This document shows, piece after piece, positions 13,087 to 49,491 of a DNA stretch of 62,947 bases. The stretch covers positions 1 through 62,947 of the forward strand of contig JAFYFU010000055.1 of NCBI GenBank assembly GCA_017543595.1, in the 5' to 3' direction. Below the pieces are notes generated by a model. The model saw only the letters and a list, made by a program, of their open reading frames with translations, searched no databases and was not told the origin of the DNA. Within the stretch, counting starts at the first letter, position 1. The number at the start of each line of letters is the position of its first letter. The DNA is from Ruminococcus sp. GTDB taxonomy: Bacteria > Bacillota > Clostridia > Oscillospirales > Ruminococcaceae. The translations under genes and the position numbers were made by a program.

Positions 13087-13094
13087 AAAACTCC

Positions 13095-13139
13095 CTGAAA
13101 CAAGACAAGCCGTTTTTAATGGCTTTACTGACGTTTCAG
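13095..13139. other. Nested inverted repeat between NACHT and MATE genes
   Basis: Outer arms CTGAAAC (13095-13101) and GTTTCAG (13133-13139) enclose inner arms AAGCC (13107-13111) and GGCTT (13121-13125). Read on the minus strand it is followed by GGAG and a T-run, so it may be a second terminator for the MATE transcript; on the plus strand no T-run follows. Confidence 0.5.
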
Positions 13140-13178
13140 ACGGACTTACTTTCATTGATACACCGTTGGTTAAATATG

Positions 13179-13205
13179 CAAAAAAATCCCCCTCAAAAGG
13201 GGGAT
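13179..13205 (-). terminator. Terminator of the MATE gene
   Basis: Stem ATCCCCC/GGGGGAT (13186-13192 and 13199-13205) with a T-run on the minus strand, directly after the MATE stop codon. Confidence 0.85.
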
Positions 13206-13209
13206 AATC

Positions 13210-14556
13210 TCACCAGCGACCCGAAAAATACCTTATCATTGTTTTTCTTCTCTGTATCATATAGTATATGTATATTATCATTGATATGAACATTGTAAGA
13301 ACTTCTGCGGACGGAATTGTAAGCCACAAACCGTTCATTCCCTTTGATGAGGAAAGCGTAAATATAAGCGGTACAACAAAAATTGTTCCCCTTAAAAGTG
13401 ATATTGTCTGTGCGTGGGACGACAGTTCCCTTGAATTGAAATATACCGACAATATTGAATTTACTGCCATAAAAGGCATACAGAGAAAATACAGTTTCAT
13501 TCCGTTTTCGGCAATTTCACGCAGTTCCCTGTTGTTGTCCCAGTTGAAAAGCCTTACTATGAGATTTCCGCACTCATACATCATGAAATATCCCGAAACT
13601 GCAATAAACAGCGAAAGCATTACAGACCAGCGAAGTATCAGGCGCATTTCTCTTTCTTTGTCAAGACCATGCAGTTTGCACATGAGAGGCTGAACGCCTG
13701 TGCCTATACCGCTGAATACCGCCACAACAACTATTGCAATATTTGCAACAACACCATAGGCGGCAATTCCCGTATTTCCCGTAAGTTTATAGATAACATA
13801 ATTAAATACGGCTATTACGATTCCGCCCGAAACTTCCGTGACAAATGAATGAAAGCCGAGAGATATTATTTCTTTTATTGTTCTCCATGAGGGAGACATT
13901 TTTTTTAGTCCGAAAGCATTCCACTTGAAAATAAAATGAAAACTCATGATTCCAAGACTTATCAGCGGAGATGTGCAGGTCGCAAGCGCAGCCCCGAACA
14001 TTCCCATATTCCTGTTGAATATAAATTCATAGTCAAGTACAAGATTGTAAAAATTTGAGAACAACATCGCAAAAGTTGCAAGTCTCGGCGCAGAATCATT
14101 CCTCATAAAACAGACTGTAAGATTGTTTATCAGAAATGCAGACGAAAAAAGCAGTACCGTTTTAAGATATTTGTGCGCCATGTCAAATATTTTTTCGTCA
14201 GCACCAAGCAGCATCGTAAATCTTTCGGAAAAAAATATTCCGATTATCTCAAATACGACAGCTATAACGGCAAGCGCAAAAAATGCGTTTGTATATATCT
14301 TATAAGTTTCTTTGCGGTCTGTACTGTTGTATACCATCGAAAAAAGACTGCCGCCGCCCATTCCGAACATAAGACCAAATCCGTTTATGAAATTGAACAC
14401 TGGCAGACAGAGATTCAGTGCGGCAAGTCCGTCTGCGCCCATTCCTTTTGCTATGAAAAAAGTATCTGCCAGTATGTATACCGACATTCCGACAGAACTT
14501 AATATATTAAGCAGGGTATATTTGAAAAAATCCCTGCGGAGTTTGTTTTTATCCAT
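13210..14556 (-). CDS. MATE family multidrug/Na+ exporter
   Basis: A 448-residue, 12-helix MATE protein. The N-terminus is FFKYTLLNILSSVGMSVYIL followed by ADTFFIAKGMG, and MGGGSLFS in the second helix is typical of the NorM/DinF superfamily. Such pumps exchange Na+ or H+ for cationic drugs or metabolites. The initiator ATG matches the family N-terminus but has no Shine-Dalgarno; instead the leader is a G-rich/C-rich foldable segment. Codon use looks like its neighbours. Substrate unknown. Confidence 0.88.
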   Translation of the reverse strand: MDKNKLRRDFFKYTLLNILSSVGMSVYILADTFFIAKGMGADGLAALNLCLPVFNFINGFGLMFGMGGGSLFSMVYNSTDRKETYKIYTNAFFALAVIAVVFEIIGIFFSERFTMLLGADEKIFDMAHKYLKTVLLFSSAFLINNLTVCFMRNDSAPRLATFAMLFSNFYNLVLDYEFIFNRNMGMFGAALATCTSPLISLGIMSFHFIFKWNAFGLKKMSPSWRTIKEIISLGFHSFVTEVSGGIVIAVFNYVIYKLTGNTGIAAYGVVANIAIVVVAVFSGIGTGVQPLMCKLHGLDKEREMRLILRWSVMLSLFIAVSGYFMMYECGNLIVRLFNWDNNRELREIAENGMKLYFLCMPFMAVNSILSVYFNSRELSSHAQTISLLRGTIFVVPLIFTLSSSKGMNGLWLTIPSAEVLTMFISMIIYIYYMIQRRKTMIRYFSGRW

Positions 14557-14612
14557 TTAAAGTGGGGGCAGACATACTTTGGTGCTTGTCCCCCGAACCC
14601 CCTTTTTTGATT
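14557..14612 (-). repeat. G-rich foldable leader of the MATE gene
   Basis: On the minus strand, two G5 runs (complement of about 14591-14602) can pair with the CCCCC just before the start codon (complement of 14566-14570). The string from AATGCAT through the G-runs to GACAAGC resembles 32705-32742 on the plus strand, so it may be a decayed copy of the same interspersed element. Confidence 0.35.
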
Positions 14613-14627
14613 CATAATGCATTTCTG

Positions 14628-14636
14628 ATTATAGCA
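14628..14636 (-). promoter_or_regulatory. Extended -10 promoter of the MATE gene
   Basis: TGCTATAAT on the minus strand. The -35 at 17 bp is only TATATT, so the extended -10 must carry most of the recognition. Confidence 0.6.
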
Positions 14637-14746
14637 TAAATTTTCTCAAAAATATACAGTTTTTACAATATTCAGCGTTTTTGACGGAAAGTTTAATTAT
14701 TTTAGGCAATAATGCACAAAATTAAGGTTATCCGCAGGAAACATAT

Positions 14747-14800
14747 TTTTAGTTATTATAAATAAATATATCTGTTTATAACTGTAAGAAATAACTAAAA
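14747..14800. promoter_or_regulatory. Nested inverted repeat upstream of gdhA promoter
   Basis: Outer arms TTTTAGTTATT (14747-14757) and AATAACTAAAA (14790-14800) are perfectly complementary over 11 bp; inner arms TTATAAA (14756-14762) and TTTATAA (14775-14781) are also complementary. It ends 34 bp before the -35 of gdhA, so it could be an upstream activator or repressor site. No protein can be named. Confidence 0.45.
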
Positions 14801-14834
14801 TGAAGAAAAATAATAAAATTTATTCTGTTTGCTA

Positions 14835-16278
<1,444 letters not shown>

Positions 16279-30397: not shown

Positions 30398-31723
30398 TTA
30401 TTCTGAAACTCTGCCTGCGGAATCGTCATATCTTTTTATTTTTGTTTCAAGACCTGCTTTGGGGTCTTTGTTTTTTACAGCGTTTATTATAGCCTGAATT
30501 ATTTCGGGCTGACTTTGTTCGGCAGATGCCCTCGTGAAAAGTCCGAAACCGTACTGACCGTTATAGCCGTTGTCCCAGTAAACGGGAGTTATTCCGTATG
30601 TTGCGGCGATACCTGCCAGATATCCATTGTAGTAAGCCCTGTTTTCAGCTATCTGATTGGGAATACCCGCATTTGCGGAAGTTTTGTCTATACAGCCGAA
30701 CTCACCTATTACAACATGGAGACCCTTGTCAATGAAATTTTCTTTTAATTTTTTCATTTGATTTTCAAGGTGTTCTTCCTCGCCCCATGAGGCTTTATTT
30801 TTGGGATTAGCCTTGTTTATTTCAACAATCTGCTGACCCTTTTCGCCCCAGAGAAAAGTTTTTTTGCTTTCATCTCCGCAGTAATCCCAAGGGTCATAGC
30901 AGTGAACGGAAACAATCATTCTGTTTTCGCCTGCTGTATTTTTATCGTCCGTGGGCAACTGAAAACCGTAATCCCCGACAGTATAATCAATATTTGTATT
31001 CCAGCCCGGGAACATAAGCCAGCGGTGTGTATTATTTTCACCCGATGCCCTGACAGTATCAATGAAAATCTGATTATAGGCATTTATATTTTCATACTGT
31101 TCCCTTACGGGGTCGGAATAGTTGCCGTTAAACTCCTCGTTCATGCTTTCAAAAATAAGGTGTTCGTCATAGGTTGCGAATTTGTCGGCTATCTGCTGCC
31201 AGAGGGCAGTATATTTTTCTTTTATATAGTCCTGATTTTCGCCGTTGCAGAGAAACCAGCCGCCGCTTATCGTATTATAGCCGTCACCGTGGACATTTAT
31301 AATAACATTCAGTTCCCTGTTATAGCAGTAGTCAACAACTTCCTGCACACGGTTCAGCCATGTTTCATCAACTTTATAATTATTATCATCGTCAATATAA
31401 TCGAGATAGGAAACGGGAACTCTTATTGTTGAAAATCCTGCATCTGCGACAGCATCAACCATTTCCTGAGAGGCTTTCGGATTTCCCCATACGGTTTCAC
31501 TTGGGTGACCGTTTGAATTTGCTTCAAGGGTATTTCCGTAATTCCAGCCTGCGCCGAGAGTTTCGGCTATATTTTCGGCTGACATGGTAAATGTGCCGTT
31601 GTTTTTCGGTGTTTCGCCCTCAGATGTCTGAGTGTTATTATTACTGCCCGAAGAACAGCCCGTAACCGATACCGCAAACAGCACAGCACCGAAAAGAGCC
31701 GCAAATTTTATATCTGATTTCAT
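30398..31723 (-). CDS. GH5 endoglucanase, lipoprotein
   Basis: A 441-residue extracellular cellulase. The lipobox VTGC (Cys23) is followed by an Asn/Ser-rich linker; the GH5 barrel begins about residue 50 (LGAGWNYGNTLEAN). The acid/base Glu is in FESMNEEFNGN and the nucleophile in HVVIGEFGCID. It has no dockerin, so it is tied to the membrane, not the cellulosome. GGAGGA precedes the ATG. Monocistronic between its own promoter and terminator. Confidence 0.93.
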   Translation of the reverse strand: MKSDIKFAALFGAVLFAVSVTGCSSGSNNNTQTSEGETPKNNGTFTMSAENIAETLGAGWNYGNTLEANSNGHPSETVWGNPKASQEMVDAVADAGFSTIRVPVSYLDYIDDDNNYKVDETWLNRVQEVVDYCYNRELNVIINVHGDGYNTISGGWFLCNGENQDYIKEKYTALWQQIADKFATYDEHLIFESMNEEFNGNYSDPVREQYENINAYNQIFIDTVRASGENNTHRWLMFPGWNTNIDYTVGDYGFQLPTDDKNTAGENRMIVSVHCYDPWDYCGDESKKTFLWGEKGQQIVEINKANPKNKASWGEEEHLENQMKKLKENFIDKGLHVVIGEFGCIDKTSANAGIPNQIAENRAYYNGYLAGIAATYGITPVYWDNGYNGQYGFGLFTRASAEQSQPEIIQAIINAVKNKDPKAGLETKIKRYDDSAGRVSE

Positions 31724-33984: not shown

Positions 33985-34019
33985 CAGAAAAACAGACACA
34001 CGGCTTTCCCGTATGTCTG
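33985..34019 (-). terminator. Terminator of the transporter operon
   Basis: Minus strand imperfect 11-bp stem CAGACA.ACGG/CCGT.TGTCTG (33993-34003 and 34009-34019) with a T-run at the complement of 33987-33991. Ends the five-gene operon. Confidence 0.8.
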
Positions 34020-34028
34020 AATATTTTA

Positions 34029-36419
34029 TTATGACTGTTCGCTTAGGTATATTGACAGACGGCTTTGAAGAAGATAAGCAGTTTCATCAACGTCTTTGTC
34101 TCCCCTGAAACAAGCTCCTGTTTCTTCTTTTACTATTGAATAAACATCATTTGCATAGCCCATACCGGGTTTGGCAGACATGAGATATTCGGCATATCTG
34201 TCTCTTTCCTCTTTGCTTATCGGATTAATTTTTATTATTTCGCCTGCATAGTAAGCCTCATCATCTTCCTCGACTTTTTTTCCGTTTTCCATATGATAGG
34301 GCTTTGACATGGACTTATCAAGTTTTTTCTCAAATGCAGGCTTGTAAGTTGGAAATCCCGCAAAGAAATCATTTGCGTTTTCGTAATATTCTTCCGTAAA
34401 GAAAGAACTTAAAAATTTCCAACAGGCATCTTTATTGGGAGAGCTGTCCATTATTCCGAAACACATACTTGTCTGGAATAATGCTCCCCTGCCGTCAGAT
34501 GAAGGGAATCCCACAAAAGATATATCTTCGCCGAAATTTGCATATCTGAGGTGTGCATAATCAAAAGAATTATCGAAAGATACCTGTTTTACAAGTGCCT
34601 TGTCGTCATGTATTGCAAGTTCGGATTCATTGTATGTTGCAATAAGCTCATCAATGTCGATATCCGTGTTTTCGTCCTCTTCGGGTGATTCATCAAAACT
34701 GTTGCAGAAATTAAGAAGCTTTTTGAAATCGTCCGTATCGAAATGGCAGGTATTTGTTGAATAGTCTATGGGACTTGTTCCGAAATAAAGCAGTTCAAAA
34801 ACTTTGTCCCTTGTATTTTCCATACTCAAAAATCTCATTTCTTCGGGCATACTGTTGTAAGCGTCTATCATTTCGTCAATTGTCCAGTTTTCATTCGGGA
34901 GGAATTTTTTCTTTGCGGCAATAGTAGCAACAGTGAATGACGGTATAAGGCTGTAAAGCTTGCCGTTTACTTCTCCCGCCTCAATCGCATTGGGAAGAAT
35001 ATCATCTTTGCTTAAATTTTCATCTTTGTCAAGGTATTCATAAAGGTCTGCAAAGACACCCTTTGAAGAAAAGCTGTTTATCATGTTGGTATTTTCACAG
35101 ATTACCATATCAGGGGCTTTTCCCGATATGATATCAAGTTTAAGCTGTTCTTCGCCTGATTTTCCCTGTTCATAGTCGCTGTATTCATTGTAATCAATTA
35201 CATTTATACGGACATTGTCACTTGACTTGTTAAAAGATGTAGCCATTTTTGTAATATCGTTTGTTGCGTACATAACTCCGAGGTTGATAATGATTGTATT
35301 CGCAAGTTCGGCGGCATCACGCTTTGAAAGCGAATAAAATCCCGTCATATTGTTGTCAAAGTCGTTTATATATACCGTAAATTTGCCGTCATCGGAAGCA
35401 ATGCCAGCCATTACCCTTTCACCGTTCAGGTCTGAATCCACCCAGCTTACGGCTTCCTCTACTGTTCCGTCACTCTTGATGCCAAGCAGGGCTTTGCCTA
35501 AAAGCATATAATAATCATATTCGTTAGTTCCCTTAAACAGCTTTAAGCTGTATAAGCTGTCTGTCTGACCCGAAAGAGGAGTTGTTGAGATTTGTTTGAG
35601 AGTCTCGCCGTCAAATTTTGAAAGGCTGAAATTTTCATAGTCCTCTGACGAAACTATGACAAGATTTCCGTCACTGTCGGTGAAACCTCCTGATATATAA
35701 CCGTTTATGAGAGTTATTTCATTGCTGAGTTTTCCGTCACTTCCAAGTGTGAAATAGTGGAGGCTGTAATCTGAAAATCTCATGCTTACAAGAATTTTTC
35801 CGCCGTTGAGTGCAAAAAGGTCCGCAAAAACCATTCCCTGATTCAGTTCGCCCTCTGCAACCTCATATTCTGCCTTTGATTCTATGGGATTTCTTGAAAC
35901 AATCTGCCCCGTACTGTCTGCAATAATCAGTTCATAGCTGTATTTTACATTTTTGTACATTGCCTCATAGTCAAAATCATCAACACTGAAATCAGGGTCG
36001 GAAGTGTCGGGCAACTTGAAATCTCCGTAATCGGTATACTTCACAATGGCATATATATTCCCGTCGGGAGACGCCGAACCATAAACCGAAACTTCACCGT
36101 TTTCGGGCTTTTTTATACCCATGTCTATTCTGTCAAGACCTGAAAAATCAGAATTTGAAATATAGAACACGGTTTCTTCTGTTTCGGCATCTTTTCCTGA
36201 GAACGCATATTTTCCGTCACCTATGGGGAAAATGTTGTCAAATTCCGAGAAATAAACGGAACTGTTGAGTTCATCACATCTGTATGAATTTGAAATTACA
36301 AGGTCTGCCGTCTGCTGTGAGGCAGTACCTCCGCCCTCCGAACCACTCGAACAGGAAAAGGCTGAAAACATCATTGACGCTGCCATAACTGCGGCAGCAA
36401 CACGCAATTTTTTCCTCAT
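34029..36419 (-). CDS. Oversized solute-binding lipoprotein with extra N-terminal domain
   Basis: A 796-residue lipoprotein (lipobox FSC after AASMMFSA). The C-terminal 420 residues match family 1 sugar-binding proteins: VRINVIDYNEYSDYEQG, LDIISGKAPDMV, ANDFFAGFPTYKP. Between residues 35 and 375 lies a beta-rich domain with recurring strand-loop blocks (ISNSDFSGLDRIDMG, YFTLGSDGKLSNE, LSKFDGETLKQIS), resembling a beta-propeller. That makes it almost double the usual length. ATG 36419 has GGGGAG upstream; the longer reading overlapping the previous gene is rejected. Last gene of the hybrid transporter operon. Ligand unknown. Confidence 0.82.
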   Translation of the reverse strand: MRKKLRVAAAVMAASMMFSAFSCSSGSEGGGTASQQTADLVISNSYRCDELNSSVYFSEFDNIFPIGDGKYAFSGKDAETEETVFYISNSDFSGLDRIDMGIKKPENGEVSVYGSASPDGNIYAIVKYTDYGDFKLPDTSDPDFSVDDFDYEAMYKNVKYSYELIIADSTGQIVSRNPIESKAEYEVAEGELNQGMVFADLFALNGGKILVSMRFSDYSLHYFTLGSDGKLSNEITLINGYISGGFTDSDGNLVIVSSEDYENFSLSKFDGETLKQISTTPLSGQTDSLYSLKLFKGTNEYDYYMLLGKALLGIKSDGTVEEAVSWVDSDLNGERVMAGIASDDGKFTVYINDFDNNMTGFYSLSKRDAAELANTIIINLGVMYATNDITKMATSFNKSSDNVRINVIDYNEYSDYEQGKSGEEQLKLDIISGKAPDMVICENTNMINSFSSKGVFADLYEYLDKDENLSKDDILPNAIEAGEVNGKLYSLIPSFTVATIAAKKKFLPNENWTIDEMIDAYNSMPEEMRFLSMENTRDKVFELLYFGTSPIDYSTNTCHFDTDDFKKLLNFCNSFDESPEEDENTDIDIDELIATYNESELAIHDDKALVKQVSFDNSFDYAHLRYANFGEDISFVGFPSSDGRGALFQTSMCFGIMDSSPNKDACWKFLSSFFTEEYYENANDFFAGFPTYKPAFEKKLDKSMSKPYHMENGKKVEEDDEAYYAGEIIKINPISKEERDRYAEYLMSAKPGMGYANDVYSIVKEETGACFRGDKDVDETAYLLQSRLSIYLSEQS

Positions 36420-36420
36420 A

Positions 36421-37551
36421 TCAGTTCTCCCCATTAATTTCTCTTTTGTATTTTCTTGTTCTGAAACGGTCATATTTGTCTGCTGCCTTGGCTTTGAGAT
36501 ATTCTTTCAGAACACCGCCCGCACGGTAAACCTTTACAAACATACAAACGGCTGCGATAAACGGACACACAAGAAGAAGTCTCTGCAAGAAATAAAGCTT
36601 TGAAAGCTTATATTCCATTATTCTCGATGCGTTTTCCCAGTAGGGATATGAAATACTGCTGTCATCAACGAAATAATTGTAAAGTTTACTGTGATTCTCA
36701 TACATGAGCGAAGGCGCAAAACGTCCTGTATTGTCAACTATTTTATACTTGTTCCTGTAATTCTCCTCAAAGAAGCCCTTTACTTTTTCGTATGCGAACT
36801 TTTCAACGGGACAGGGAAGCATACATTCGTAGCAGTTTATTTTCTTGAAACTGTTCGTGCCTGACGAATTGAAGTCTGTGCTGTCGGACTGTGAACTGTC
36901 AAATGTATCAAGCCTTGATGCGCCGTCATATGTTATATAGGCTTTCGGCAGACTTCCGCTGCACTGCTGTTCAACTTCCGTCTGCGGAGTTTCAATTACA
37001 CCCGATATATAAAACTTTGTTTCTTCTATATACACGGGCAGTCCCGAAACCTCAACAGTGCCGTAAAGCGTCCACGCAAGGTCATGGTCTATGAGGATTC
37101 CGTCCTGCATGGTATCATCATCATAAAGATATGAACCGTCAAGGAGTTCAAAGGCATGGAATACAAAGAAATCACCGCCGACTGCCATAACGTCCGCATC
37201 ATTTTTGACATTTCTGGTGCTTTTAAGGGAATGAACGCCTATTCCTGCGCTGTAAGCTTCGGGATAAGGCTTGTTGCCCTGACCCTCAGCCTCCGAACCT
37301 GCTTCTTTCAGAGCCGTAACAAGTTCATATTTCATAGAGCCTATTTTATCCTTGTCAAAGCCTGAACCTTCTTCAAGAAAACAGCTTACCTGTGCATAAT
37401 CCGTATCTTTTGACCATCTCTCCGCCGTATAGTTGTATGACTGTGTTTTCGCCATAAAACCGCCTATTACATAGACTATTCCCGATGCGGCAACCATAAG
37501 GAAATTCAGGAACAGGAGAAGAACACGCCATTTTCTGCCAATGATTTTCAT
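36421..37551 (-). CDS. MacB periplasmic-domain-like membrane protein
   Basis: A 376-residue protein with one helix at 8-33, a large outside domain (34-310), a second helix at about 320-342 (LQRLLLVCPFIAAVCMFV) and a basic cytosolic tail. The outside part has the look of the MacB_PCD domain of FtsX/MacB permeases (DGILIDHDLAWTLYG, then KFYISGVIE), but the three further FtsX helices and any ATPase partner are missing. It sits between an HlyD-like adaptor (12 bp) and the solute-binding gene (1 bp), so it is probably part of that complex. Assignment by pattern only. Confidence 0.6.
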   Translation of the reverse strand: MKIIGRKWRVLLLFLNFLMVAASGIVYVIGGFMAKTQSYNYTAERWSKDTDYAQVSCFLEEGSGFDKDKIGSMKYELVTALKEAGSEAEGQGNKPYPEAYSAGIGVHSLKSTRNVKNDADVMAVGGDFFVFHAFELLDGSYLYDDDTMQDGILIDHDLAWTLYGTVEVSGLPVYIEETKFYISGVIETPQTEVEQQCSGSLPKAYITYDGASRLDTFDSSQSDSTDFNSSGTNSFKKINCYECMLPCPVEKFAYEKVKGFFEENYRNKYKIVDNTGRFAPSLMYENHSKLYNYFVDDSSISYPYWENASRIMEYKLSKLYFLQRLLLVCPFIAAVCMFVKVYRAGGVLKEYLKAKAADKYDRFRTRKYKREINGEN

Positions 37552-37563
37552 AAGGTCACCGCC

Positions 37564-39213
37564 TTAATTGTCTTTCATGCGAACCTGGTCCTTGGGTGAA
37601 ACAGGCTTGCTTGCCGCCGTTATGACATAATCTCCTGCGCTTATTCCTCCCTTTACCGCTCTTGATGTTTCATCGGAGGCTACGACTTCGACTTCAACTT
37701 TCTCTGCATAGTATCTGTTGCCGAGAGGAGAGGACTTTGATTTTGTTATAAGAACAAATTTATTTCCCTTGTTGTCCTCATATACTGCGCTTTTCGGAAC
37801 TACCGCATCATAGTTTCCGCTTCCGCAGGGTATTGAAAGTTCAAGGTTTGAGCCTACGCTTGTATTTCCCTTTACGGTAAATTCAAGTATCATATTCTTT
37901 GAGCCTGCGACTGTATCATTTTTGATAGCCGTAAGTTCTGCCTGAATGTCGTTGTTGAAATTGTTGAGAATGTCAACTTCTGCGCCTTTCTGGGCTTTCT
38001 TGGCTTTTTCGCCCTCAACCTTTATTTTTACGAGGTATCCCTCATCTGTTATGTCGATATCCATGATTGTATCGCCCGAATTTACTTTGCTGCCTGTTTT
38101 TGTTTTTATATCGGCAACTATGCCGTTATATTTTGAAACTATGCCGTTTGAAGAAGCTTTTTCCTTGGCTTTTTCGAGTTTTTTCTGAGCTTCTTCGAGA
38201 GCAGCCTTTGCCTTTTCGAGTTTAAGGTCATTTACAGTCTGATTTGATTCATTTTTGCTCTGTGTTTTTTCGATTAATTCTTCAAGGGATTTCTGTTTTT
38301 CTGCAACCTGCTTGTCAAGGTCGGAAACCTTTTCAACGCCTTCATTTATTTCATAGGAAGATATTTCGCTTTCAAGGCGGGATATCTCATATTCAACATC
38401 GGAAAGCTGTGAAGTAAGCCTTTCACGGAGAGACTGTTTTGCCTCCTCGTAATTGCTTTTTGCCTCATTCATGGCAGTTTCCTTTTCGGCAACGTCCTCG
38501 GAATTTGCATTGAGAGCCATTTCATAAACTCTTTCGGCATCTTCCGCCCTGCTTTTGAGGAGGTTTATATCGCCCGTATATTCGGGTGCAGCCATTGAAT
38601 AATCGTCCATATCTATTGCTGCTATTGTATTGCTGAGATTCTGCTGTATATTTTTCTGGTATGAAAGTGCGCTTTCGCTGTTTGCCTTTGCGTTTTTGAG
38701 TTCATTGTTGTAAGATTCGTTTGAGGCAGCCTCATCTCTTTTTTCTATTGCGTCATTGAGTTCCTTGCGGGCTTTATTTATTTCATCGCTCTGCTGGTCA
38801 CTGCTGTCTTTCTGAGTGAGAAGTTCCTGCTGGTAGTTGAGTTCTGCATCTCTTACAGCGTCCTGAGCCTGTGTAAGTTCATCGCCTGTACTGCCTGCAA
38901 CTGTGAAAAGTATGTCACCCTGCTTGACTTCCTGACCCTTTTTGACCATGATAGTATCAATGGTTACGTTGTCATCGACAGTAACTTCATATGACTGCTG
39001 AGGTTCTACTGTGCCGTTTCCTCTTATGCGCTCGGTAAGTTTTCCGGAAGTCACGGCTGCGGTAGTGACCTGTGCAAGAGACTTGTTCATTATTGTATTT
39101 GAAAAGAATGTAAGTACAAGAAGAATAACAAGAAATACTATTACTATTCCTCTTATTATGCTCCGCTTTTTTGCGGGGTCACGGTTTTCCATTTCAGATT
39201 TTGAATCGCTCAT
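37564..39213 (-). CDS. HlyD/YknX-like membrane fusion (adaptor) protein
   Basis: A 549-residue adaptor. One N-terminal helix (residues 18-40) is followed by the lipoyl/barrel-sandwich half VTVDDNVTIDTIMVKKGQEV, a coiled-coil hairpin of about 230 residues (NYQQELLTQKD to KAKEKASSNG), the second lipoyl half, and beta-barrel domains. In Gram-positives such adaptors partner MacB-type export ABC systems (YknXYZ). Here the neighbours are MalF/MalG-type import permeases (41 bp upstream) and a MacB-PCD-like protein. AAGGAGAG precedes the ATG. Confidence 0.87.
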   Translation of the reverse strand: MSDSKSEMENRDPAKKRSIIRGIVIVFLVILLVLTFFSNTIMNKSLAQVTTAAVTSGKLTERIRGNGTVEPQQSYEVTVDDNVTIDTIMVKKGQEVKQGDILFTVAGSTGDELTQAQDAVRDAELNYQQELLTQKDSSDQQSDEINKARKELNDAIEKRDEAASNESYNNELKNAKANSESALSYQKNIQQNLSNTIAAIDMDDYSMAAPEYTGDINLLKSRAEDAERVYEMALNANSEDVAEKETAMNEAKSNYEEAKQSLRERLTSQLSDVEYEISRLESEISSYEINEGVEKVSDLDKQVAEKQKSLEELIEKTQSKNESNQTVNDLKLEKAKAALEEAQKKLEKAKEKASSNGIVSKYNGIVADIKTKTGSKVNSGDTIMDIDITDEGYLVKIKVEGEKAKKAQKGAEVDILNNFNNDIQAELTAIKNDTVAGSKNMILEFTVKGNTSVGSNLELSIPCGSGNYDAVVPKSAVYEDNKGNKFVLITKSKSSPLGNRYYAEKVEVEVVASDETSRAVKGGISAGDYVITAASKPVSPKDQVRMKDN

Positions 39214-39254
39214 TGTATTCTCTCCTTATCGTTATATTTTTAAACTATGTGAAA

Positions 39255-40145
39255 TTATCCCTTGATTCCGCCTGCGTAGGTTATGCCTTCAACGAGGTCG
39301 TCCTCGCCGTAAAGGAACATCAGAACCGTAGGAACCATGTACACAACGCCTACGGCAAAGGCAAGTCCTATATCTCCCGTGTTTATCTGGGAAAGAAATA
39401 CCGAAAGCGGGTGCATTGTCGTATCTTTAAGCATGATAAGCGGCTGTTCAACCATGTTCCAGTAGTCTATGAAAACAAGCATTGTAACCGATATTATCGC
39501 ACTTTTGCAGAGGGGAACGAAAATCTTTGTAAGTATCTGAAATTCGCTTGCACCGTCAAGCTTTGCCGCTTCAACATATGATATCGGGATTCTTCTCATA
39601 ACTTTTGATATGAGATAAACGCTGAACGGTGAGAATATTCCCGGAAGGATTATTGACCAGCGTGTGTCAAGAAGTCCGAATTTATCGGCAACAAGATAGT
39701 TGGGTACAAGTGTTACCTGATAGGGCATTATCATAAGTATTACATACACAAAGAAAATAATTGCCTTTGGCTTGCTTGGGTGTCTTGAAAATCCGTATGA
39801 CGAAAGTACGGCAATAACTACCTGAAAAAGCGTTATCGGCACTGTAAGCAATACGGAGTTCCAGAATTTGAGGAGATAATCGGGACTTCTGAAAAGCACC
39901 CCTTCATACTGGCTGAAAGTTACTTTGTCGGGAATAAATTTAAGGTTTACATTTTTTGAAACGAAAGTGTCTTTCTTTTCGGACGCACTTCCGATGAGTG
40001 TGCCGTAGTTTGCTTTTATTTCGCTTGTGGTCATGAATGAGTTCACAACCGTGAAAATTGTCGGCATAATAAAAAGCAGCGCAGCGGCAACGGCAAAAAT
40101 AAATACTATCGTGTTAAGTGTTTTTTCTTTTTTTCTCTTATCCAT
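39255..40145 (-). CDS. Sugar ABC transporter permease, MalG type
   Basis: A 296-residue, six-helix permease of the CUT1 class. The ATPase-docking EAA loop is EAAKLDGASEFQILTKIFVP. It ends GITYAGGIKG, near the typical ITAGAVKG terminus. A periplasmic insertion after helix 1 (residues about 35-85) is a bit longer than usual. TGATG overlap with the MalF-type gene: stop and start share one base. Confidence 0.92.
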   Translation of the reverse strand: MDKRKKEKTLNTIVFIFAVAAALLFIMPTIFTVVNSFMTTSEIKANYGTLIGSASEKKDTFVSKNVNLKFIPDKVTFSQYEGVLFRSPDYLLKFWNSVLLTVPITLFQVVIAVLSSYGFSRHPSKPKAIIFFVYVILMIMPYQVTLVPNYLVADKFGLLDTRWSIILPGIFSPFSVYLISKVMRRIPISYVEAAKLDGASEFQILTKIFVPLCKSAIISVTMLVFIDYWNMVEQPLIMLKDTTMHPLSVFLSQINTGDIGLAFAVGVVYMVPTVLMFLYGEDDLVEGITYAGGIKG

Positions 40146-41020
40146 CAGTCTTCAAGGTCCTTTCCGAAAATACGGTCGGTCGTAAGCAATATTGCAAGGA
40201 CGACAATCATAACGAGTGCGAAAAGAACTGCCGCAGCCGAAAGTTTCTGATAATCAAGACTCTTGAACGTATTGTTCATGAAGTGTTGCAGCATATACAT
40301 CTTGCTTACGGGGTGGTCGCCTGTGAGAAGATATACTTCACGGAATATCTTGAATGAATTGATTATCGAGAGGATAAGAACAAATACTATCGTGGGAGAA
40401 AGATATCTGAGTTTTATCCTGAAAAACTGATACAGCTTGCCTGCACCTTCAAGGTCTGCGACTTCAAGTATATCTTTCGGCACTCCTGCAAGGGCTGACA
40501 TGAACAGTATCATATTGTATCCGAGATTTTTCCAGAGGAACATGGCAATTATGATTATCTGTCCGTGCGGTGACTTTATCCAGTCAACGCCTTCAAATCC
40601 GAATATTTCGCCTATCTGGTTTATAGTGCCGTGATTGTGGAAAAGAACCTGCCATACTATTACAACCGATGCGGTGGGTACCATAAGCGGACTGAGAAAA
40701 AACGTCCTCAGCGCACTTTTATAGGGGATTTTTCTTTCAAGCATAAGCGCAAGTATTATTGAAAGAATTACCGAAAGCGGTACTGCTATAAGCGAAAAGT
40801 ATGCGGAGTTCCATGTTGCCTGCTTGAATGCGGTGTTCTGCAAAAGTGCCTTGTAATTTACAAGCCCCACATATTCATGCAGTATGGGATTGTTTATAGT
40901 TGAATAATAGACGACTATCGCAAAAGGCACGACAAAAAATGCAAGAACGCCCAGAAGTCCGGGCAAAATACAGGCGTATGAGAATATACGCTCCTTTAAA
41001 TTTCCTTTTTCTTTTTTCAT
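40145..41020 (-). CDS. Sugar ABC transporter permease, MalF/UgpA type
   Basis: A 291-residue CUT1 permease, first gene of the operon. The EAA loop reads EVADLEGAGKLYQFFRIKLR. Six predicted helices begin with YACILPGLLGVLAFFVVP. A GTG at 41029 is possible but overlaps the ribosome site AAAGGTGG, so ATG 41020 is chosen. No ATP-binding subunit is present in the operon; a shared MsiK/MalK-type ATPase elsewhere is the usual solution in Firmicutes. Confidence 0.92.
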   Translation of the reverse strand: MKKEKGNLKERIFSYACILPGLLGVLAFFVVPFAIVVYYSTINNPILHEYVGLVNYKALLQNTAFKQATWNSAYFSLIAVPLSVILSIILALMLERKIPYKSALRTFFLSPLMVPTASVVIVWQVLFHNHGTINQIGEIFGFEGVDWIKSPHGQIIIIAMFLWKNLGYNMILFMSALAGVPKDILEVADLEGAGKLYQFFRIKLRYLSPTIVFVLILSIINSFKIFREVYLLTGDHPVSKMYMLQHFMNNTFKSLDYQKLSAAAVLFALVMIVVLAILLTTDRIFGKDLED

Positions 41021-41076: not shown

Positions 41077-41105
41077 ATTATAACATTACATTCGTTTTGT
41101 GTCAA
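41077..41105 (-). promoter_or_regulatory. Promoter of the hybrid transporter operon
   Basis: Minus strand: TTGACA (41100-41105), 17 bp, TATAAT (41077-41082) with extended TGT. Perfect consensus. Confidence 0.9.
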
Positions 41106-42301: not shown

Positions 42302-44950
42302 ATGGATAACAGCAATCTTAATGACGGCTTTCCGCAGGCTGACGTTCCGGATACGGAAGATGTGAACCCTGCCCCCCCGCCGACTGATGACTCACAGCAG
42401 TATTATCAGAATGTTGCACCGGCAACGGTACGCACAAAAAAGAAAAAGAAGAAGAAAAAGAACATATTTCTTACCGTTCTTAAAAAATTCTTCATGGTCA
42501 TCGCAACAACACTTCTCTCACTTTTCCTCGTAATGGTAATAACAGGCACGATAGTCGCAACGGCTCTTACCGTCTATGTCCTCGATTTCATGGAGGACGC
42601 AACCAATATCACGCTCCAAGAGCTTGAATCGGGAAGCGACACCTATTTTTACGGCAACAAGACAAACGAAAAAGGTGAAAAAGAACTTGTCGTTCTCCAA
42701 AGTATCAAAACGGACGTTCAGAGAATCCCCGTTTCGATTGACCGTATACCCCAGCACGTTCGTGATGCCTTTGTCTACACCGAGGACGAACGTTTCTATA
42801 CACATGACGGTGTTGACTATAAGCGTACTTTTGCAGCATTCGTAAATATGTTCCTTCATATTTACAACACTCAGCAGGGTGGTTCGACTATTACCCAGCA
42901 GCTTATCAAAAACCTCACGGGCGACAACGAATACTCCCCGCAGCGTAAGATAAGAGAAATTTTCAGCGCAATGCAGCTCGAAAAAACTTACTCCAAAGAC
43001 GAGATTCTTGAAGAATATCTCAACTATATCGGCTTCGGAGGTCCTATAAACGGCATACAGCTCGCCGCAACACGTTATTTCGGAAAGAGCGTTGAGGAAC
43101 TTACAACCCCCGAAGCGGCTGTCCTCGCATCTATTCCGCAAAGCCCGCAGTTCTACGGTCCTTTTGTCGAAACTTATGACGATGAAGGAAATCTCATAGT
43201 TGACGGCAGAGCAAACAACAAAATACGTGCAAGATACGTTCTCTCGAAAATCTACGGAAACGGTGCGATAACCTATGACGAGTATCAGGAATATCTCAAT
43301 ACCGATATAATCTATACCGACTCCGAAGAATACAAGAGACTGCACCCCGAAAGCGATATTGACGAAATGGAAGCCTCCCAGAAAATTTATACATGGGAAG
43401 TCGATGCCATGATGTATGAAGCCGCAGGCTATCTCATGAGCCAGTACAATATTGACCTTCAAGAAGCCATAAGACGTATAAACAAGGGCGGTTACAGAGT
43501 TTATTCAACTCTCGATGACCAGATGCAGGAATACATGGAGGAACGTTTCAAGGATTTGAACAACCTCGTTTCCGCAGACTTTGTAAGAAAATGGGTGGAT
43601 ATTGATGATGACGGAAACTTTGAGGAATACCTCCCGCATATCGGATTTATTGCCCTTAACTATGACGGCTCGGTAAAATCCCTCATAGGTGACTGGGGCG
43701 AAAAAGATACATCGCTCTCCACAAGCTACGCCGTCACCGAAACAAGGCAGGTTGGTTCTACCATGAAACCTATTTCAACTTACGGTCTTGCCCTTGAAAC
43801 CGATTATATCCACTGGGGTACTCAAATCAAGGACAGTGCCATCAAGGAAATAGACGGAAAGCCCTGGCCTACCAACTACTCAACAGATAATATCACAACT
43901 CTTTCCAATGCAACTTTCAATGTTTACTATATGCTCCAACAGTCTTTCAATACTGCTCCCGCACATCTCTGTGAGGAACTCACACCGCATGAAGTTTACA
44001 AGTTCTGTAAGGAAAGAATGGGTCTTAAACTTGACCCCGATGATGAGGACCTTTCACCTCTTACCGTTGGTGCGCTTACTTTCGGTATAACTCTCGAAAA
44101 CCTCGTAAATGCTTATATCCCCTACGGAAACCACGGTATCTACAATGAAGCCCACATAGTTTCAAAGATAGAGGACAGCAACCACAAAATCATCTATCAG
44201 AATGACGGAAACGCAAGAGAGGCTGTAAGCAGTGAAACTGCTTGGGTAATGAACAGACTCCTCAAAAACGTTATCGACAACGGTACAGGTATGTCCGCAA
44301 AACTCAACAACAAGGTTGTATGCGGTAAGACAGGTACTACCGATAACTGGTATGACCTCACTTTCGTAGGTCTTACAAGAGATTTTGTAAGCGGTATAAC
44401 TATCGGTTACAAGTATTACGATGAGGATTTACAGCTTCCGACTTCACTCCATTCCGCAGATATCTGGAAAGCCGCTGTCGGCGACTATATCGAAGAAAAT
44501 TTCAAAGATACACCCGCAGACTTTGACGAAAACCCGAATGTAATAGTTGCTCCCATGTGTACTGCTACGGGAATGATTGCAGGAGATTACTGTCCCAAGG
44601 GCATAACAGGCTACTGGAAATCTTCAAATGCTCCCGTATGTACAGGTACTCACGGTTATGTAAGCAGCAACAATAACAACAACAACAATAATACAAACTA
44701 CAACGACTACAATAATTATAACAACTATAATCAGTGGAACAATTACAACTACAATTACACAGACCCCAACGCAGGCGGTTATACCGACCAGAACACAGGC
44801 GGTTACACCGACCCCAATGCAGGAGGTTATGCCGTTCCCGATGCAGGCGGTTACACAGACCCCAACGCAGGAGGCTATGCCGTTCCCGATGCAGGCGGTT
44901 ACACAGACCCCAATGCAGGCGGAAACTATGACGGAGGATTCCTCTGGTAA
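42302..44950 (+). CDS. Class A penicillin-binding protein (PBP1A) with repeat tail
   Basis: An 882-residue bifunctional peptidoglycan synthase. A Lys-rich cytosolic head and one helix (residues 58-95) precede the GT51 glycosyltransferase with YTEDERFYTHDGVD and GGSTITQQLIKN. The transpeptidase follows with SxxK in GSTMKPIS, the SFN triad in QQSFNTAP and KTGTTDNW. After about residue 780 the tail is Asn/Tyr-rich, then seven 8-residue Gly-Tyr repeats. The ribosome site AAGGAGA is 14 bases from the ATG, longer than ideal. Strong own promoter. Confidence 0.95.
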   Translation: MDNSNLNDGFPQADVPDTEDVNPAPPPTDDSQQYYQNVAPATVRTKKKKKKKKNIFLTVLKKFFMVIATTLLSLFLVMVITGTIVATALTVYVLDFMEDATNITLQELESGSDTYFYGNKTNEKGEKELVVLQSIKTDVQRIPVSIDRIPQHVRDAFVYTEDERFYTHDGVDYKRTFAAFVNMFLHIYNTQQGGSTITQQLIKNLTGDNEYSPQRKIREIFSAMQLEKTYSKDEILEEYLNYIGFGGPINGIQLAATRYFGKSVEELTTPEAAVLASIPQSPQFYGPFVETYDDEGNLIVDGRANNKIRARYVLSKIYGNGAITYDEYQEYLNTDIIYTDSEEYKRLHPESDIDEMEASQKIYTWEVDAMMYEAAGYLMSQYNIDLQEAIRRINKGGYRVYSTLDDQMQEYMEERFKDLNNLVSADFVRKWVDIDDDGNFEEYLPHIGFIALNYDGSVKSLIGDWGEKDTSLSTSYAVTETRQVGSTMKPISTYGLALETDYIHWGTQIKDSAIKEIDGKPWPTNYSTDNITTLSNATFNVYYMLQQSFNTAPAHLCEELTPHEVYKFCKERMGLKLDPDDEDLSPLTVGALTFGITLENLVNAYIPYGNHGIYNEAHIVSKIEDSNHKIIYQNDGNAREAVSSETAWVMNRLLKNVIDNGTGMSAKLNNKVVCGKTGTTDNWYDLTFVGLTRDFVSGITIGYKYYDEDLQLPTSLHSADIWKAAVGDYIEENFKDTPADFDENPNVIVAPMCTATGMIAGDYCPKGITGYWKSSNAPVCTGTHGYVSSNNNNNNNNTNYNDYNNYNNYNQWNNYNYNYTDPNAGGYTDQNTGGYTDPNAGGYAVPDAGGYTDPNAGGYAVPDAGGYTDPNAGGNYDGGFLW
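44756..44923 (+). repeat. Seven 24-bp tandem repeats in the PBP1A tail
   Basis: Encodes seven units of the form YTDPNAGG or YAVPDAGG; the 48-bp YAVPDAGG-YTDPNAGG pair is nearly perfectly doubled, showing recent slippage. A preceding Asn/Tyr run (44667-44755) is AAC/AAT rich. Confidence 0.9.
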
Positions 44951-46941: not shown

Positions 46942-47940
46942 ATGTTCAAAAAATTAGTCCCGCTGATATTATTTTTTACAGTCTTTCTCCTCTGCGGCTG
47001 TACGGAAAAAAAAAATAACGTATATTCGGGAAATAAACTGGATATTGTCTGTACTGTATTTCCCGAATATGACTGGTGCAGGGAAATTCTCGGAAAGTAC
47101 CAAAAAAATGTCAATCTTACCTATCTCCTCGGTGACGGAGTTGATATGCACCACTATCAGCCCGATGCAGATGCCGTCAGTAAAGTCAAAAACTGCGATA
47201 TATTGATGTATGTGGGCGGTGAGTCCGAAAAATGGATAGATGAAGCCCTCGCACAAGTCCCGAATAATAATATAACTGTCGTGAATCTCCTCGATATTCT
47301 CGGAGACAGCGCAATTGAACTTGAACGTGCAAGAGTACGCAGTAAAAAAGCCCTTGACCCCGTGGAAGAAACTACCGAACCAACTACCGTCCCAGAACCT
47401 CTTTACGATGAACACCCGTGGCTTTCACTCAAACACGCCCAGACTTTCTGTACGGAAATAACTGAAATTATCTGCCGGACTGACCCCAGCCATGCCGATT
47501 ATTACAGGGCAAACCTTGAATCATACAACAACAAGCTGTCAGCACTTGACAAGGAATTTCGCCTCATGTTCAACGACTGCAAAAAACACGCCCTGATTTT
47601 CGGTGACAGATACCCTTTCAGATACTTTGAAGCCGATTATAATATACTGTGCTATGCGCCTTTTTCTACCTGCGGTACTGCCTCAACCGCACAATATGAT
47701 GACATTGTTGCACTCGCAAAACAGATAAGCTATTTCAGAACCCATGTGGTATATATACTTGAAAGCTCGGATACAACTATTGCAGATGCCATAATAGAAA
47801 ACACAACTATAAGCAACCAGAGAATTGAAGTTTTAAATTCCGCACAGTCCGTCACGCAGAAACAGGCTGACAAAGGTATGTCATATCTTTCAATAATGCT
47901 CGGAAATTACGATATAATAGAGGAGGCTTTGAATCAATGA
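46942..47940 (+). CDS. Metal (Zn/Mn) ABC transporter binding lipoprotein
   Basis: A 332-residue ZnuA/AdcA-class binding protein with lipobox CGC (FLLCGCTEK). The first metal His is in GVDMHHYQPD and the second region is DEHPWLSLKHA. In the third region, where classical ZnuA has a His, this protein reads FGDRYPFRYFEADY, a version seen in a clostridial subgroup, so the metal set differs. A Thr/Glu/Pro linker (about 135-152) replaces the His-rich loop. First gene of a four-gene operon behind a Fur-type box; overlaps the ATPase gene by ATGA. Confidence 0.88.
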   Translation: MFKKLVPLILFFTVFLLCGCTEKKNNVYSGNKLDIVCTVFPEYDWCREILGKYQKNVNLTYLLGDGVDMHHYQPDADAVSKVKNCDILMYVGGESEKWIDEALAQVPNNNITVVNLLDILGDSAIELERARVRSKKALDPVEETTEPTTVPEPLYDEHPWLSLKHAQTFCTEITEIICRTDPSHADYYRANLESYNNKLSALDKEFRLMFNDCKKHALIFGDRYPFRYFEADYNILCYAPFSTCGTASTAQYDDIVALAKQISYFRTHVVYILESSDTTIADAIIENTTISNQRIEVLNSAQSVTQKQADKGMSYLSIMLGNYDIIEEALNQ

Positions 47941-48650
47941 CAGAACAGATAATCTGTAAAAATGCCGCCCTCGGCTATGAAAATACAATCGTTACCGAAA
48001 AACTTGATTTTACTGTCTGTAAGGGCGATTATCTTTGTATTCTCGGCGAAAACGGTTCGGGAAAATCCACCCTCATAAAAGCCTTGCTCGGTCTTAAACC
48101 GCAGGTAAGCGGTGAAATAAAATGGTGCGGAGATTTCAAGGCTACCCAGATAGGCTATCTTCCTCAGCAGACCCCCGTTCAAAGAGATTTCCCCGCATCG
48201 GTAAGGGAAATTGTTCTGTCGGGCTGTCTCTCGAAAACAGGTTTCCGCCCGTTCTATAACAAAGAAGAAAAAGCCCTCGCCGAAAAAACTATGAATCAGC
48301 TTGGTATAACTCACCTTGCAAAACGCTGTTACCGTGAACTTTCAGGCGGTCAGCAACAAAGAGTCCTCCTTGCAAGGGCTTTGTGCGCCACTCAGAAAAT
48401 GCTGCTCCTTGATGAGCCTGTCACAGGTCTTGACCCCAAAGCCCAAAGCGAATTATATGAAATAATCGCAAAATTAAACAGGGACGGCATAACTATTATT
48501 ATGGTTTCCCATGACATGAATATCGTCAGATATGCAAGCCATATTCTTCATATCGGCAGAAAACAGCTTTTTTTCGGCAGAAAAGAGGACTACCTCAAAA
48601 GCCGTATAGGAAAAACTTTTCTTGAAACGGAGGAGTCTGAAAATGAGTGA
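47937..48650 (+). CDS. Metal ABC transporter ATP-binding protein
   Basis: A 237-residue ZnuC/MntB-type ATPase: Walker A GENGSGKST, signature LSGGQQQR, Walker B LLLDEPVTGLD and switch His in VSHDM. It powers the permease encoded next. Overlaps the binding-protein gene by four bases and the permease gene by eight. Confidence 0.94.
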   Translation: MTEQIICKNAALGYENTIVTEKLDFTVCKGDYLCILGENGSGKSTLIKALLGLKPQVSGEIKWCGDFKATQIGYLPQQTPVQRDFPASVREIVLSGCLSKTGFRPFYNKEEKALAEKTMNQLGITHLAKRCYRELSGGQQQRVLLARALCATQKMLLLDEPVTGLDPKAQSELYEIIAKLNRDGITIIMVSHDMNIVRYASHILHIGRKQLFFGRKEDYLKSRIGKTFLETEESENE

Positions 48651-49491
48651 TATATTTAACAAACTGACTGAATATTTTTCTTTTTCGTTCGTCAGATATG
48701 CCCTCATAGTCGGACTTCTGATAGCACTTTGTTCTTCTCTGCTGGGTGTTACGCTTGTACTTAAAAGATTTTCTTTCATAGGGGACGGACTTTCACACGT
48801 TGCATTCGGGGCTATGGCTGTTGCATCAATGCTCGGATTTGCTTCAAACAACATGGTCATAATAATGCCGATTACGGTAATTTCGGCAATTCTTCTCCTG
48901 CGGACAGGTCAGAATACAAAAATAAAAGGTGATGCCGCCGTTGCGATGATTTCAGTCGGTGCGCTTGCAATAGGCTATATGCTTATGAACCTTTTCCCCT
49001 CAACTTCAAATATTTCAACAGATGTATGCAGTACGCTTTTCGGGTCTATGTCAATCCTCACTTTAAAACCGAGTGATGTGACAATATGCGCTGTAATGGC
49101 TGTAATAGTTATTGCCATGTTTATTATATTTTATAACAAAATATTTGCCGTCACCTTTGATGAAAATTTTTCAAAGGCTACGGGCATAAATGCTGACGGC
49201 TACAATCTTGTTATAGCTGTGATAACCGCCTTTATAATTGTACTTGCCATGAATCTTGTCGGTTCTCTGCTGATATCCGCACTTATTATATTCCCTGCGC
49301 TTTCGGCTATGAGAATTTTCAAAAGTTTCAGGAGTGTTATAATATGTTCGGCTTTGATATCTGTTTTCTGTGCGGGAACGGGAATAATTATTTCAATACT
49401 CGCAGATACTCCTGTCGGTTCAACGATAGTCTGCGCCGATATATCTGTATTTCTTTTGTTCTGGGCGATTTCGGGTCTGAAAAAAGCATGA
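48643..49491 (+). CDS. Metal ABC transporter permease
   Basis: A 282-residue ABC-3 family permease (ZnuB/MntC type) with eight predicted helices. FSFIGDGLSHVAFGAMAV is the family signature and GSLLISALIIFPALSAMRI the conserved ATPase-docking helix. ATG 48643 has GGAGGA upstream inside the ATPase gene; the ATG at 48622 lacks one. Confidence 0.93.
   Translation: MSDIFNKLTEYFSFSFVRYALIVGLLIALCSSLLGVTLVLKRFSFIGDGLSHVAFGAMAVASMLGFASNNMVIIMPITVISAILLLRTGQNTKIKGDAAVAMISVGALAIGYMLMNLFPSTSNISTDVCSTLFGSMSILTLKPSDVTICAVMAVIVIAMFIIFYNKIFAVTFDENFSKATGINADGYNLVIAVITAFIIVLAMNLVGSLLISALIIFPALSAMRIFKSFRSVIICSALISVFCAGTGIIISILADTPVGSTIVCADISVFLLFWAISGLKKA

Follow-up and report, generated by a model that had tools for sequence, protein, structure and literature searches.

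RESULTS

Gene content of the operon

The window analyzed here is the whole 62,947-nt contig JAFYFU010000055.1 of Ruminococcus sp. (assembly GCA_017543595.1), and the system in question is a set of five genes, all on the minus strand, that runs from 41020 down to 34029 in the open reading frames of the window. In order, these encode a MalF-type permease (40145..41020; 291 aa), a MalG-type permease with a lengthened first extracytoplasmic loop (39255..40145; 296 aa), an HlyD/MacA/RND-type adaptor (37564..39213; 549 aa), a MacB-like protein in which two membrane helices flank a MacB periplasmic core domain (36421..37551; 376 aa), and a solute-binding lipoprotein (SBP; 34029..36419; 796 aa). The genes for MalF and MalG overlap by 1 bp, and the gaps that follow measure 41, 12, and 1 bp. 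Upstream on the same strand lies a promoter (41077..41105) composed of TTGACA, a 17-bp spacer, and TATAAT with TG before the -10, matching the consensus at 12 of 12 positions; an 11-pair intrinsic terminator-like hairpin with a T tract (33993..34019, minus strand) stands just past the SBP stop. The region held 23 promoter-like sites versus 17.3 (SD 4.3) in shuffled sequence, which is no clear excess, and 11 terminator-like sites versus 7.1 (SD 2.6). The argument for a transcription unit was built on the single 12/12 promoter and its placing rather than on site numbers. Promoter, spacing, and terminator together suggest that the five genes are read as one transcript.

Both permeases carried the BPD_transp_1 domain (Pfam; 1.1e-17 and 1e-12) and an EAA-type loop, and so have the paired permease composition of CUT1 importers. 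In an alignment of 14 rows, the MalF loop (EVADLEGA..., residues 186-206; 40403..40465, minus strand) was invariant at E186, V187, A188, L190, E191, and G192, and the MalG loop (EAAKLDGAS..., residues 192-211; 39513..39572, minus strand) at E192, A193, A194, D197, G198, and A199 (14/14 rows in each case). We take both to be the ATPase-docking loops, as in the permease family at large. The MalG profile matched solved complexes, namely AlgM2 (3.4e-24), SugB (7.9e-23), and MalG (9.7e-19). The first outer-loop region of MalG spans 67 residues in the window and 58-74 across the 14 clade rows, versus 45-52 in four ordinary MalG proteins, a small control. MalF and MalG were the best conserved parts of the set, with 55-73% identity to the window in 13 relatives each.

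The adaptor contained HlyD_3 (Pfam; 1.6e-7) and can be divided into an N-terminal membrane helix with an FSNTI motif, lipoyl-type halves, a long helical hairpin (about residues 105-356, limits drawn by eye), and a C-terminal part. Its family, aligned as the window plus 35 of 74 relatives, matched an RND adaptor model in 36 of 36 members and a type I secretion adaptor model in 27 of 36 (E ≤ 0.001). The window adaptor itself scored 79.7 on NCBIfam RND_mfp, below the model cut-off of 94.9. Against the PDB, the family profile matched MacA (1.2e-9), EmrA (1.2e-8), and the pneumococcal adaptor 5xu0 (0.00018), and the HlyD/MacA-type adaptor of MacAB exporters is thus represented here. An LTFFSNTI-like motif in the membrane helix (39213-39080 in the window) was well conserved, basal relatives included.

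The MacB_PCD match of the MacB-like protein covered residues 57-212 (36916..37383, minus strand). Taken alone, the window protein fell slightly under the Pfam cut-off (25.3 versus 27 bits; 2.1e-5). A chance match was considered and rejected: despite that score, MacB_PCD was found at E ≤ 0.01 in all 15 family members examined first and afterwards in all 63 (the window plus 62 of 66 relatives found), with a best value of 1.3e-12. The family profile also matched MacB core domains (1.3e-7), YknZ (9.2e-5), and the pneumococcal permease 5xu1 (0.0062) in the PDB, which places the MacB periplasmic core domain of MacAB exporters in this protein. FtsX was not among the four Pfam families matched by the 63 members, and where a transmembrane domain of FtsX type would have four helices, the window protein has a single helix before its core domain and another after it. 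These were assigned by eye, and those of relatives by a simple hydropathy scan.

The lipoprotein signal, judged by eye, was used to set the SBP start at 36419 (the longest frame begins at 36473). The lipobox, ...SAFSC, was also recognized by eye, and its C23 was invariant in 63 rows (the window plus 62 of 70 relatives). SBP_bac_1 was detected (Pfam; 3.2e-9), so the window has the cognate binding protein of a CUT1 importer, one that was not recognized beside the core genes in every relative. This domain occupies the C-terminal half (34029..35249, minus strand), whose closest solved relative is CbpC of Clostridium thermocellum (2.4e-38, family profile against the PDB). The N-terminal half (residues 40-388; 35256..36302, minus strand) is a probable beta-propeller. 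Its profile, built from the window and 41 of the 62 relatives, aligned to itself off the diagonal over 160 columns (5e-10) and 141 columns (about 6e-5, offset 50), and it weakly matched designed, WD40, and NHL propellers. The best of these was a designed propeller (2.5e-7), for which no single stretch passed alone. The propeller and the membrane topology are read from profiles, repeats, and a simple hydropathy count.

An earlier sequence-only reading of this DNA had described a perfect promoter, this five-gene order with spacings of 1-41 bp, MalF- and MalG-type import permeases, an export-type (HlyD-like) adaptor, and an oversized solute-binding lipoprotein. All of these were borne out, coordinates included, by the 12/12 promoter, the BPD_transp_1, EAA-loop, and CUT1 matches, the HlyD_3, RND, and MacA profiles, and the 796-aa lipoprotein with its SBP_bac_1 C-terminal half. 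Its description of the fourth protein, as a MacB-domain protein without the FtsX helices, needs amendment: the profile search of 36421-37551 upheld the MacB_PCD similarity (63/63 members) and the lack of an FtsX domain, and two membrane helices are nevertheless retained.

Conservation of the gene set

Named genomes were scanned with MalG alone, which made for a fairer test since it asks whether MalG occurs without the other genes. The scan confirmed 578 places, the best 80 of which were retained and are called the 80 named loci. MalF, MalG, adaptor, and MacB-like genes occurred in this order in 74 of those 80, and the SBP gene came next in 60. Among the six exceptions, five contigs ended in or just past the adaptor gene, and in locus L124 only MalF went unrecognized. 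By record title the hosts were Firmicutes, mostly Ruminococcus, other Oscillospiraceae, and Lachnospiraceae, including Kineothrix alysoides (L113); one record was titled Alistipes.

Within the family, a search of 148 genomes with the MacB-like protein gave 15 positives, the source genome included, from 10 of 123 genera, a patchy distribution. In 13 of the 14 other loci, MalF, MalG, and adaptor genes adjoined, and in the remaining one the contig started inside the adaptor gene. The adaptor and MacB-like genes were swapped in L041. An SBP of this family was recognized in 10 of the 14 loci, and flanking genes mostly differed among them, with some common to close relatives. In a class-level search of 391 genomes, 40 had the MalG clade (E ≤ 1e-70) and 50 had a MacB-like match at E ≤ 1e-10; all 23 genomes with a strong MacB-like match (E < 1e-30) were among the 40. 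A phylum-level search of 398 genomes found the MalG clade in eight, five of them outside the class. The adaptor accompanied 15 of 16 more distant MalG loci, and in the other, L203, the contig stops 145 bp past MalG.

A six-frame recount of 125 loci (the 80 named and 45 from numbered genomes) placed 124 in the MalG clade, 123 of which had an adaptor match within 6 kb. The sole exception was again L203, at its contig end. Numbered genomes and named loci overlap (L040 and L105, for instance, sit on contigs of identical length, 85,498 bases), so these counts are of loci and not of independent species. Judged by these sequences, the gene set is conserved in gut and plant-fiber-degrading Clostridia. 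That the adaptor and permeases are kept together in related genomes, on which the sequence-only reading had staked its case, was confirmed across genera, families, and classes. The gene order itself, seen in 74 of the 80 named loci, recurs more often than chance would allow.

Locus L201 showed a second, partly reduced set after the first (11918-15437), with a 146-aa protein whose N-terminal helix is similar, plus an adaptor-like piece of 81 aa; only pieces were present where a whole adaptor would be expected.

ATPase

No ATPase gene is present in the operon of the window. A MalK/MsmX-type ATPase gene stood beside the core genes in 9 of 122 MalG-clade loci (L192, L193, L198, and L223-L228), directly after the MacB-like gene in eight of them; in L198 it was in pieces at a contig end. 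Both adjacent ATPases that were checked had OB_MalK and TOBE_2 domains. The source genome (93% complete) yielded one OB_MalK match, on contig C71, and also parts of another CUT1 system, and sharing of a single MalK-type ATPase is therefore expected. The operon would accordingly be served by the MalK-type ATPase of its genome, the OB_MalK/TOBE type that is found beside the core in relatives and elsewhere in the source genome. Multitask ATPases of this kind have been described in the portions of the literature consulted: MsmX serves importer operons without an ATPase of their own (PMC7658222), and Clo1313_2554 is the shared ATPase of C. thermocellum (PMC9601137). The operon had been singled out earlier as ATPase-less; none is indeed encoded in it, and the idea that this makes it odd was rejected in view of the adjacent genes in relatives and the match on C71.

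No MacB/LolD-type ATPase was found in the operon of the window or among the core genes of the 124 loci. A few loci had other ABC ATPases at a distance of up to 3.5 kb from the core, never between core genes. Those that were checked are parts of other systems: they adjoined a SufB/D gene (SUF; L088), followed an NMT1-type importer (L087), or accompanied an ABC-2 permease (L195).

Evolutionary history of the clade

The short, two-helix form of the MacB-like protein was found at 94 loci (median 378 aa). In 16 basal relatives the protein was longer (median 462 aa), and the simple hydropathy scan placed three to five helices C-terminal to its core domain. The MalG tree was computed from 54 of 125 rows; every long form was kept, along with a number of named lineages and roughly one short form in five. 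In this tree, a branch supported at 100/98 sets the short form apart. The outgroup branches of the tree are long, the program warned of long branches meeting, the root is unsure, and L198 is outside the long/short label. Short-form loci also had longer adaptors (median 590.5 aa, n = 92, versus 425.5 aa, n = 16), with a hairpin region of 227-382 residues (36 rows) versus 55-270 (15 rows), and longer SBPs (median 803.5 aa, n = 100, versus 459.5 aa, n = 20). The longer adaptor and SBP and the two-helix form may be one event on the tree and thus do not count as independent support. In L199, the long MacB-like form occurred together with a long adaptor and long SBPs.

The longer relatives had been expected to be FtsX permeases. 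This expectation was not borne out: eight of them gave no FtsX match at E ≤ 0.01 in Pfam, and the alignment with the FtsX permease of the source genome was weak and limited to a portion of the core domain (probability 58%). We therefore refer to them as multi-helix rather than as FtsX proteins. When the short family was compared with the long one, the match was confined to the core domain (99.5%, 148 columns).

Transporter C of Clostridium thermocellum

The L197 binding protein was 100% identical over 387 residues to CbpC (chain 7x0o), from which we infer that this locus is from C. thermocellum. The CbpC gene is followed there by an AAA_3-domain gene, MalF, MalG, a split adaptor, and a 473-aa MacB-like protein. 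By this sequence match, the published transporter C (CbpC) is a member of the gene set. The adaptor of the CbpC operon in L197 (7634-8987, minus strand) was present as two overlapping frames of 300 and 152 aa. The split is either real or an assembly fault and, if real, may bear on the missing phenotype of transporter C.

Among the parts of earlier reports consulted, the operon was treated as Cthe_2125-2128 (PMC8303734 and PMC3492117), and a figure legend of Yan et al. 2022 listed acra among the transporter clusters, its text naming no cluster (PMC9601137); this acra would belong to transporter C. An earlier study, as cited in a passage of PMC11212667, gave CbpC affinities of 0.28-0.49 μM for glucose to cellopentaose. 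Within the open literature searched, PMC9601137 alone brought together AcrA, cellodextrin, and an ABC transporter, and no paper describing an adaptor and a MacB-like protein alongside CUT1 permeases was found among open-literature titles and abstract openings, a set from which subscription papers are mostly absent. Passages on Ruminococcus albus 7 (PMC4300822) held no link to the operon.

Neighboring genes

Among the 116 genes that flank the 80 named loci on the same strand, no family had more than five members, and these genes gave no consistent hint of a substrate and no general cell-wall theme. In single loci, a D-Ala-D-Ala carboxypeptidase and a histidine kinase (L225, 9418-12832) or D-Ala-D-Ala ligase-type and VanW genes (L227, 9566-13454) lay beside the operon, with a two-component pair near these genes that looked VanRS-like by eye; cell-wall genes were likewise noted by eye near the operon in L226. 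In two records of Lachnospiraceae type (L121, 933-4448; L123, 1097-4540), the operon is preceded by a gene for a protein of more than 1,100 aa with FtsX-type similarity. Three loci had no SBP of this family after the core and a large secreted protein nearby instead (L211, 10744-13350; L032, 5333-8707; L035, 9388-10920), which was a GH9-CBM3 cellulase, a dockerin-bearing leucine-rich protein, or a lectin with a beta-helix.

Three further features of the window were assigned by eye. A GH5-type cellulase-like lipoprotein (30398-31723) is encoded a few genes from the operon, a penicillin-binding-protein-like gene with an asparagine-rich tail containing DPNAGGY-type repeats lies at 42302-44950, and a second ABC set, resembling a zinc or manganese importer with binding protein, ATPase, and permease, lies at 46942-49491.

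DISCUSSION

A probable single machine of importer and exporter parts

We consider it probable, though by no means assured, that the five genes specify one machine, in which a MalFGK2 motor is combined with a MacAB-derived outer module and which probably works in import. It is the best reading in view of the co-inheritance at 123 of 124 loci and of the MalK-type ATPases that adjoin the core genes in relatives, and the SBP, together with the families to which permeases and ATPase belong, speaks for import. The MalF-MalG core of CUT1 type would be driven by a MalK/MsmX-type ATPase encoded elsewhere in the genome, and its outer face would carry the MacAB-derived module of adaptor and two-helix MacB core-domain protein, perhaps on the lengthened first loop of MalG. 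The propeller-fused lipoprotein would capture the ligand and hand it to MalFG, while the adaptor and its MacB-like partner would act on the entry path across the cell wall by holding, gating, or extending it, with the adaptor presumably as an outer sleeve. That the five proteins act as one complex had been proposed from the sequence alone; their association is well supported by co-inheritance, and physical contact among them is what we infer. The same earlier reading offered that the adaptor and MacB-like part may gate or position the importer, or that the set may be a sensing device.

Several observations weigh against this reading. Co-inheritance could instead reflect a shared pathway, and a ring of adaptors round MalFG might block docking of the binding protein. 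Fourteen named loci have the core and no SBP after it; five of these have one before it, and in nine none was recognized (less than 1 kb of contig is left in two of the nine), nor was one recognized in 4 of the 14 family loci. A profile comparison of the short MacB-like family with the FtsX permease of the source genome gave no match (probability 1.9%). The order is adaptor, multi-helix protein, MalF, MalG in L204 and adaptor, MacB-like, SBP, MalF, MalG in L195. Lastly, PMC9601137 reports that an extra loop blocks the CbpC pocket and that growth of a transporter C mutant on glucose, cellobiose, and Avicel was normal.

A force-transmitting or sensing role stays under consideration in view of the adaptor, the CbpC pocket reported as blocked, and the loci where no SBP was recognized. 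In such an FtsEX-like device, ATP use by MalFGK2 would move the MacB-like core and adaptor onto a cell-wall target, and the SBP would serve as sensor or structural element. Transmission of force or signals is how the core domains of MacB and FtsX act, and the cell-wall genes near the operon in L225, L227, and, by eye, L226 would fit, as would the CbpC pocket and the absence of a growth phenotype on the three carbon sources. However, MalF and MalG are the best conserved proteins of the set (55-73% identity), as a transport path would predict, the 116 flanking genes have no general cell-wall theme, and the sub-micromolar sugar affinities of CbpC cited in PMC11212667 also count against such a device. 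We regard this account as unlikely.

The gene orders of L204 and L195 indicate that the importer half and the adaptor half can stand as blocks, which raises the alternative of two separate units in one operon, an ordinary CUT1 importer and an adaptor/MacB-like pair that works for another transporter or for none. In L195 the adaptor comes after an ABC-2 type ATPase and its permease, 2 of the 116 flanking genes (in L121 and L123) encode large FtsX permeases, and the source genome has a separate set of MacA-like, ATPase, and FtsX-like genes on contig C28. Yet the adaptor is present at 123 of 124 MalG-clade loci, no MacB-type ATPase occurs among the core genes of the 124 loci, and all 23 genomes with a MacB-like match at E < 1e-30 in the class search carry the MalG clade, and we find it rather doubtful that the two halves are separate. 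An exporter, with MalFG working outward, the adaptor as exit duct, and the SBP in retrieval or quality control, is very improbable, for although HlyD and MacA adaptors are known from exporters and those of this family match RND (36/36) and type I secretion (27/36) models, MalK/MsmX-type ATPases and CUT1 permeases are importer parts and an SBP is usually encoded, directly after the core in 60 of the 80 named loci.

A more daring possibility, to which we give limited credence, is a class of ABC machine whose sugar-importer motor, MalFG with a MalK-type ATPase, acts by way of a MacAB-type outer duct. It would be a tripartite importer that reverses the known tripartite exporters and pulls in its ligand along an adaptor tube spanning the thick Gram-positive wall, or else it would drive the MacB-like core domain as a force transmitter. 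These results suggest that a hybrid transport machine has been overlooked. Importers are usually regarded as one architecture and tripartite exporters as another, and the gene set described here joins both; its retention across Oscillospiraceae, Lachnospiraceae, and other Firmicutes makes adaptors and MacB core domains unsafe as markers of export. Automatic annotation, which would report an efflux adaptor beside a sugar permease, can hide such a system. Transporter C of C. thermocellum becomes a candidate for a larger assembly that takes in its adaptor and MacB-like protein, and the question raised is what role an adaptor has on an importer.

Comparison with known systems

The likeness to FtsEX is limited, with no FtsX match in the 63 MacB-like members or the eight longer relatives and no FtsE-type ATPase in the set. 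A cell-wall hydrolase partner did not occur regularly among the 116 flanking genes and may be encoded elsewhere. MacAB-type exporters, together with YknXYZ and the pneumococcal system (5xu0/5xu1), share with the window the profiles of adaptor and MacB core domain. The window differs from them in having no MacB ATPase, no FtsX match, and two helices, and MalFG takes the place of the FtsX core. We know of no adaptor or MacB-like partner for MsmX systems. As seen in the consulted parts of PMC7658222 and PMC9601137, those systems of Firmicutes have in common with the window an importer operon without its own ATPase and a MalK-type ATPase encoded elsewhere.

CUT1 importers such as MalFGK2, AlgM1M2SS, and SugABC have the MalG profile, EAA loops, and SBP of the window, and a shared MsmX-type ATPase is expected. 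Unlike them, the window has the additional adaptor and MacB-like protein and a longer MalG outer loop, and it shares with most two-helix relatives the propeller-fused SBP. The nearest described counterpart is the CbpC operon (Cthe_2125-2128, Clo1313_2783-6). It differs from the window in its 473-aa multi-helix MacB-like protein, its 460-aa SBP without the propeller half, and the adaptor that is split in L197, and, like the window, it encodes an SBP, MalF, MalG, an adaptor, and a MacB-like protein.

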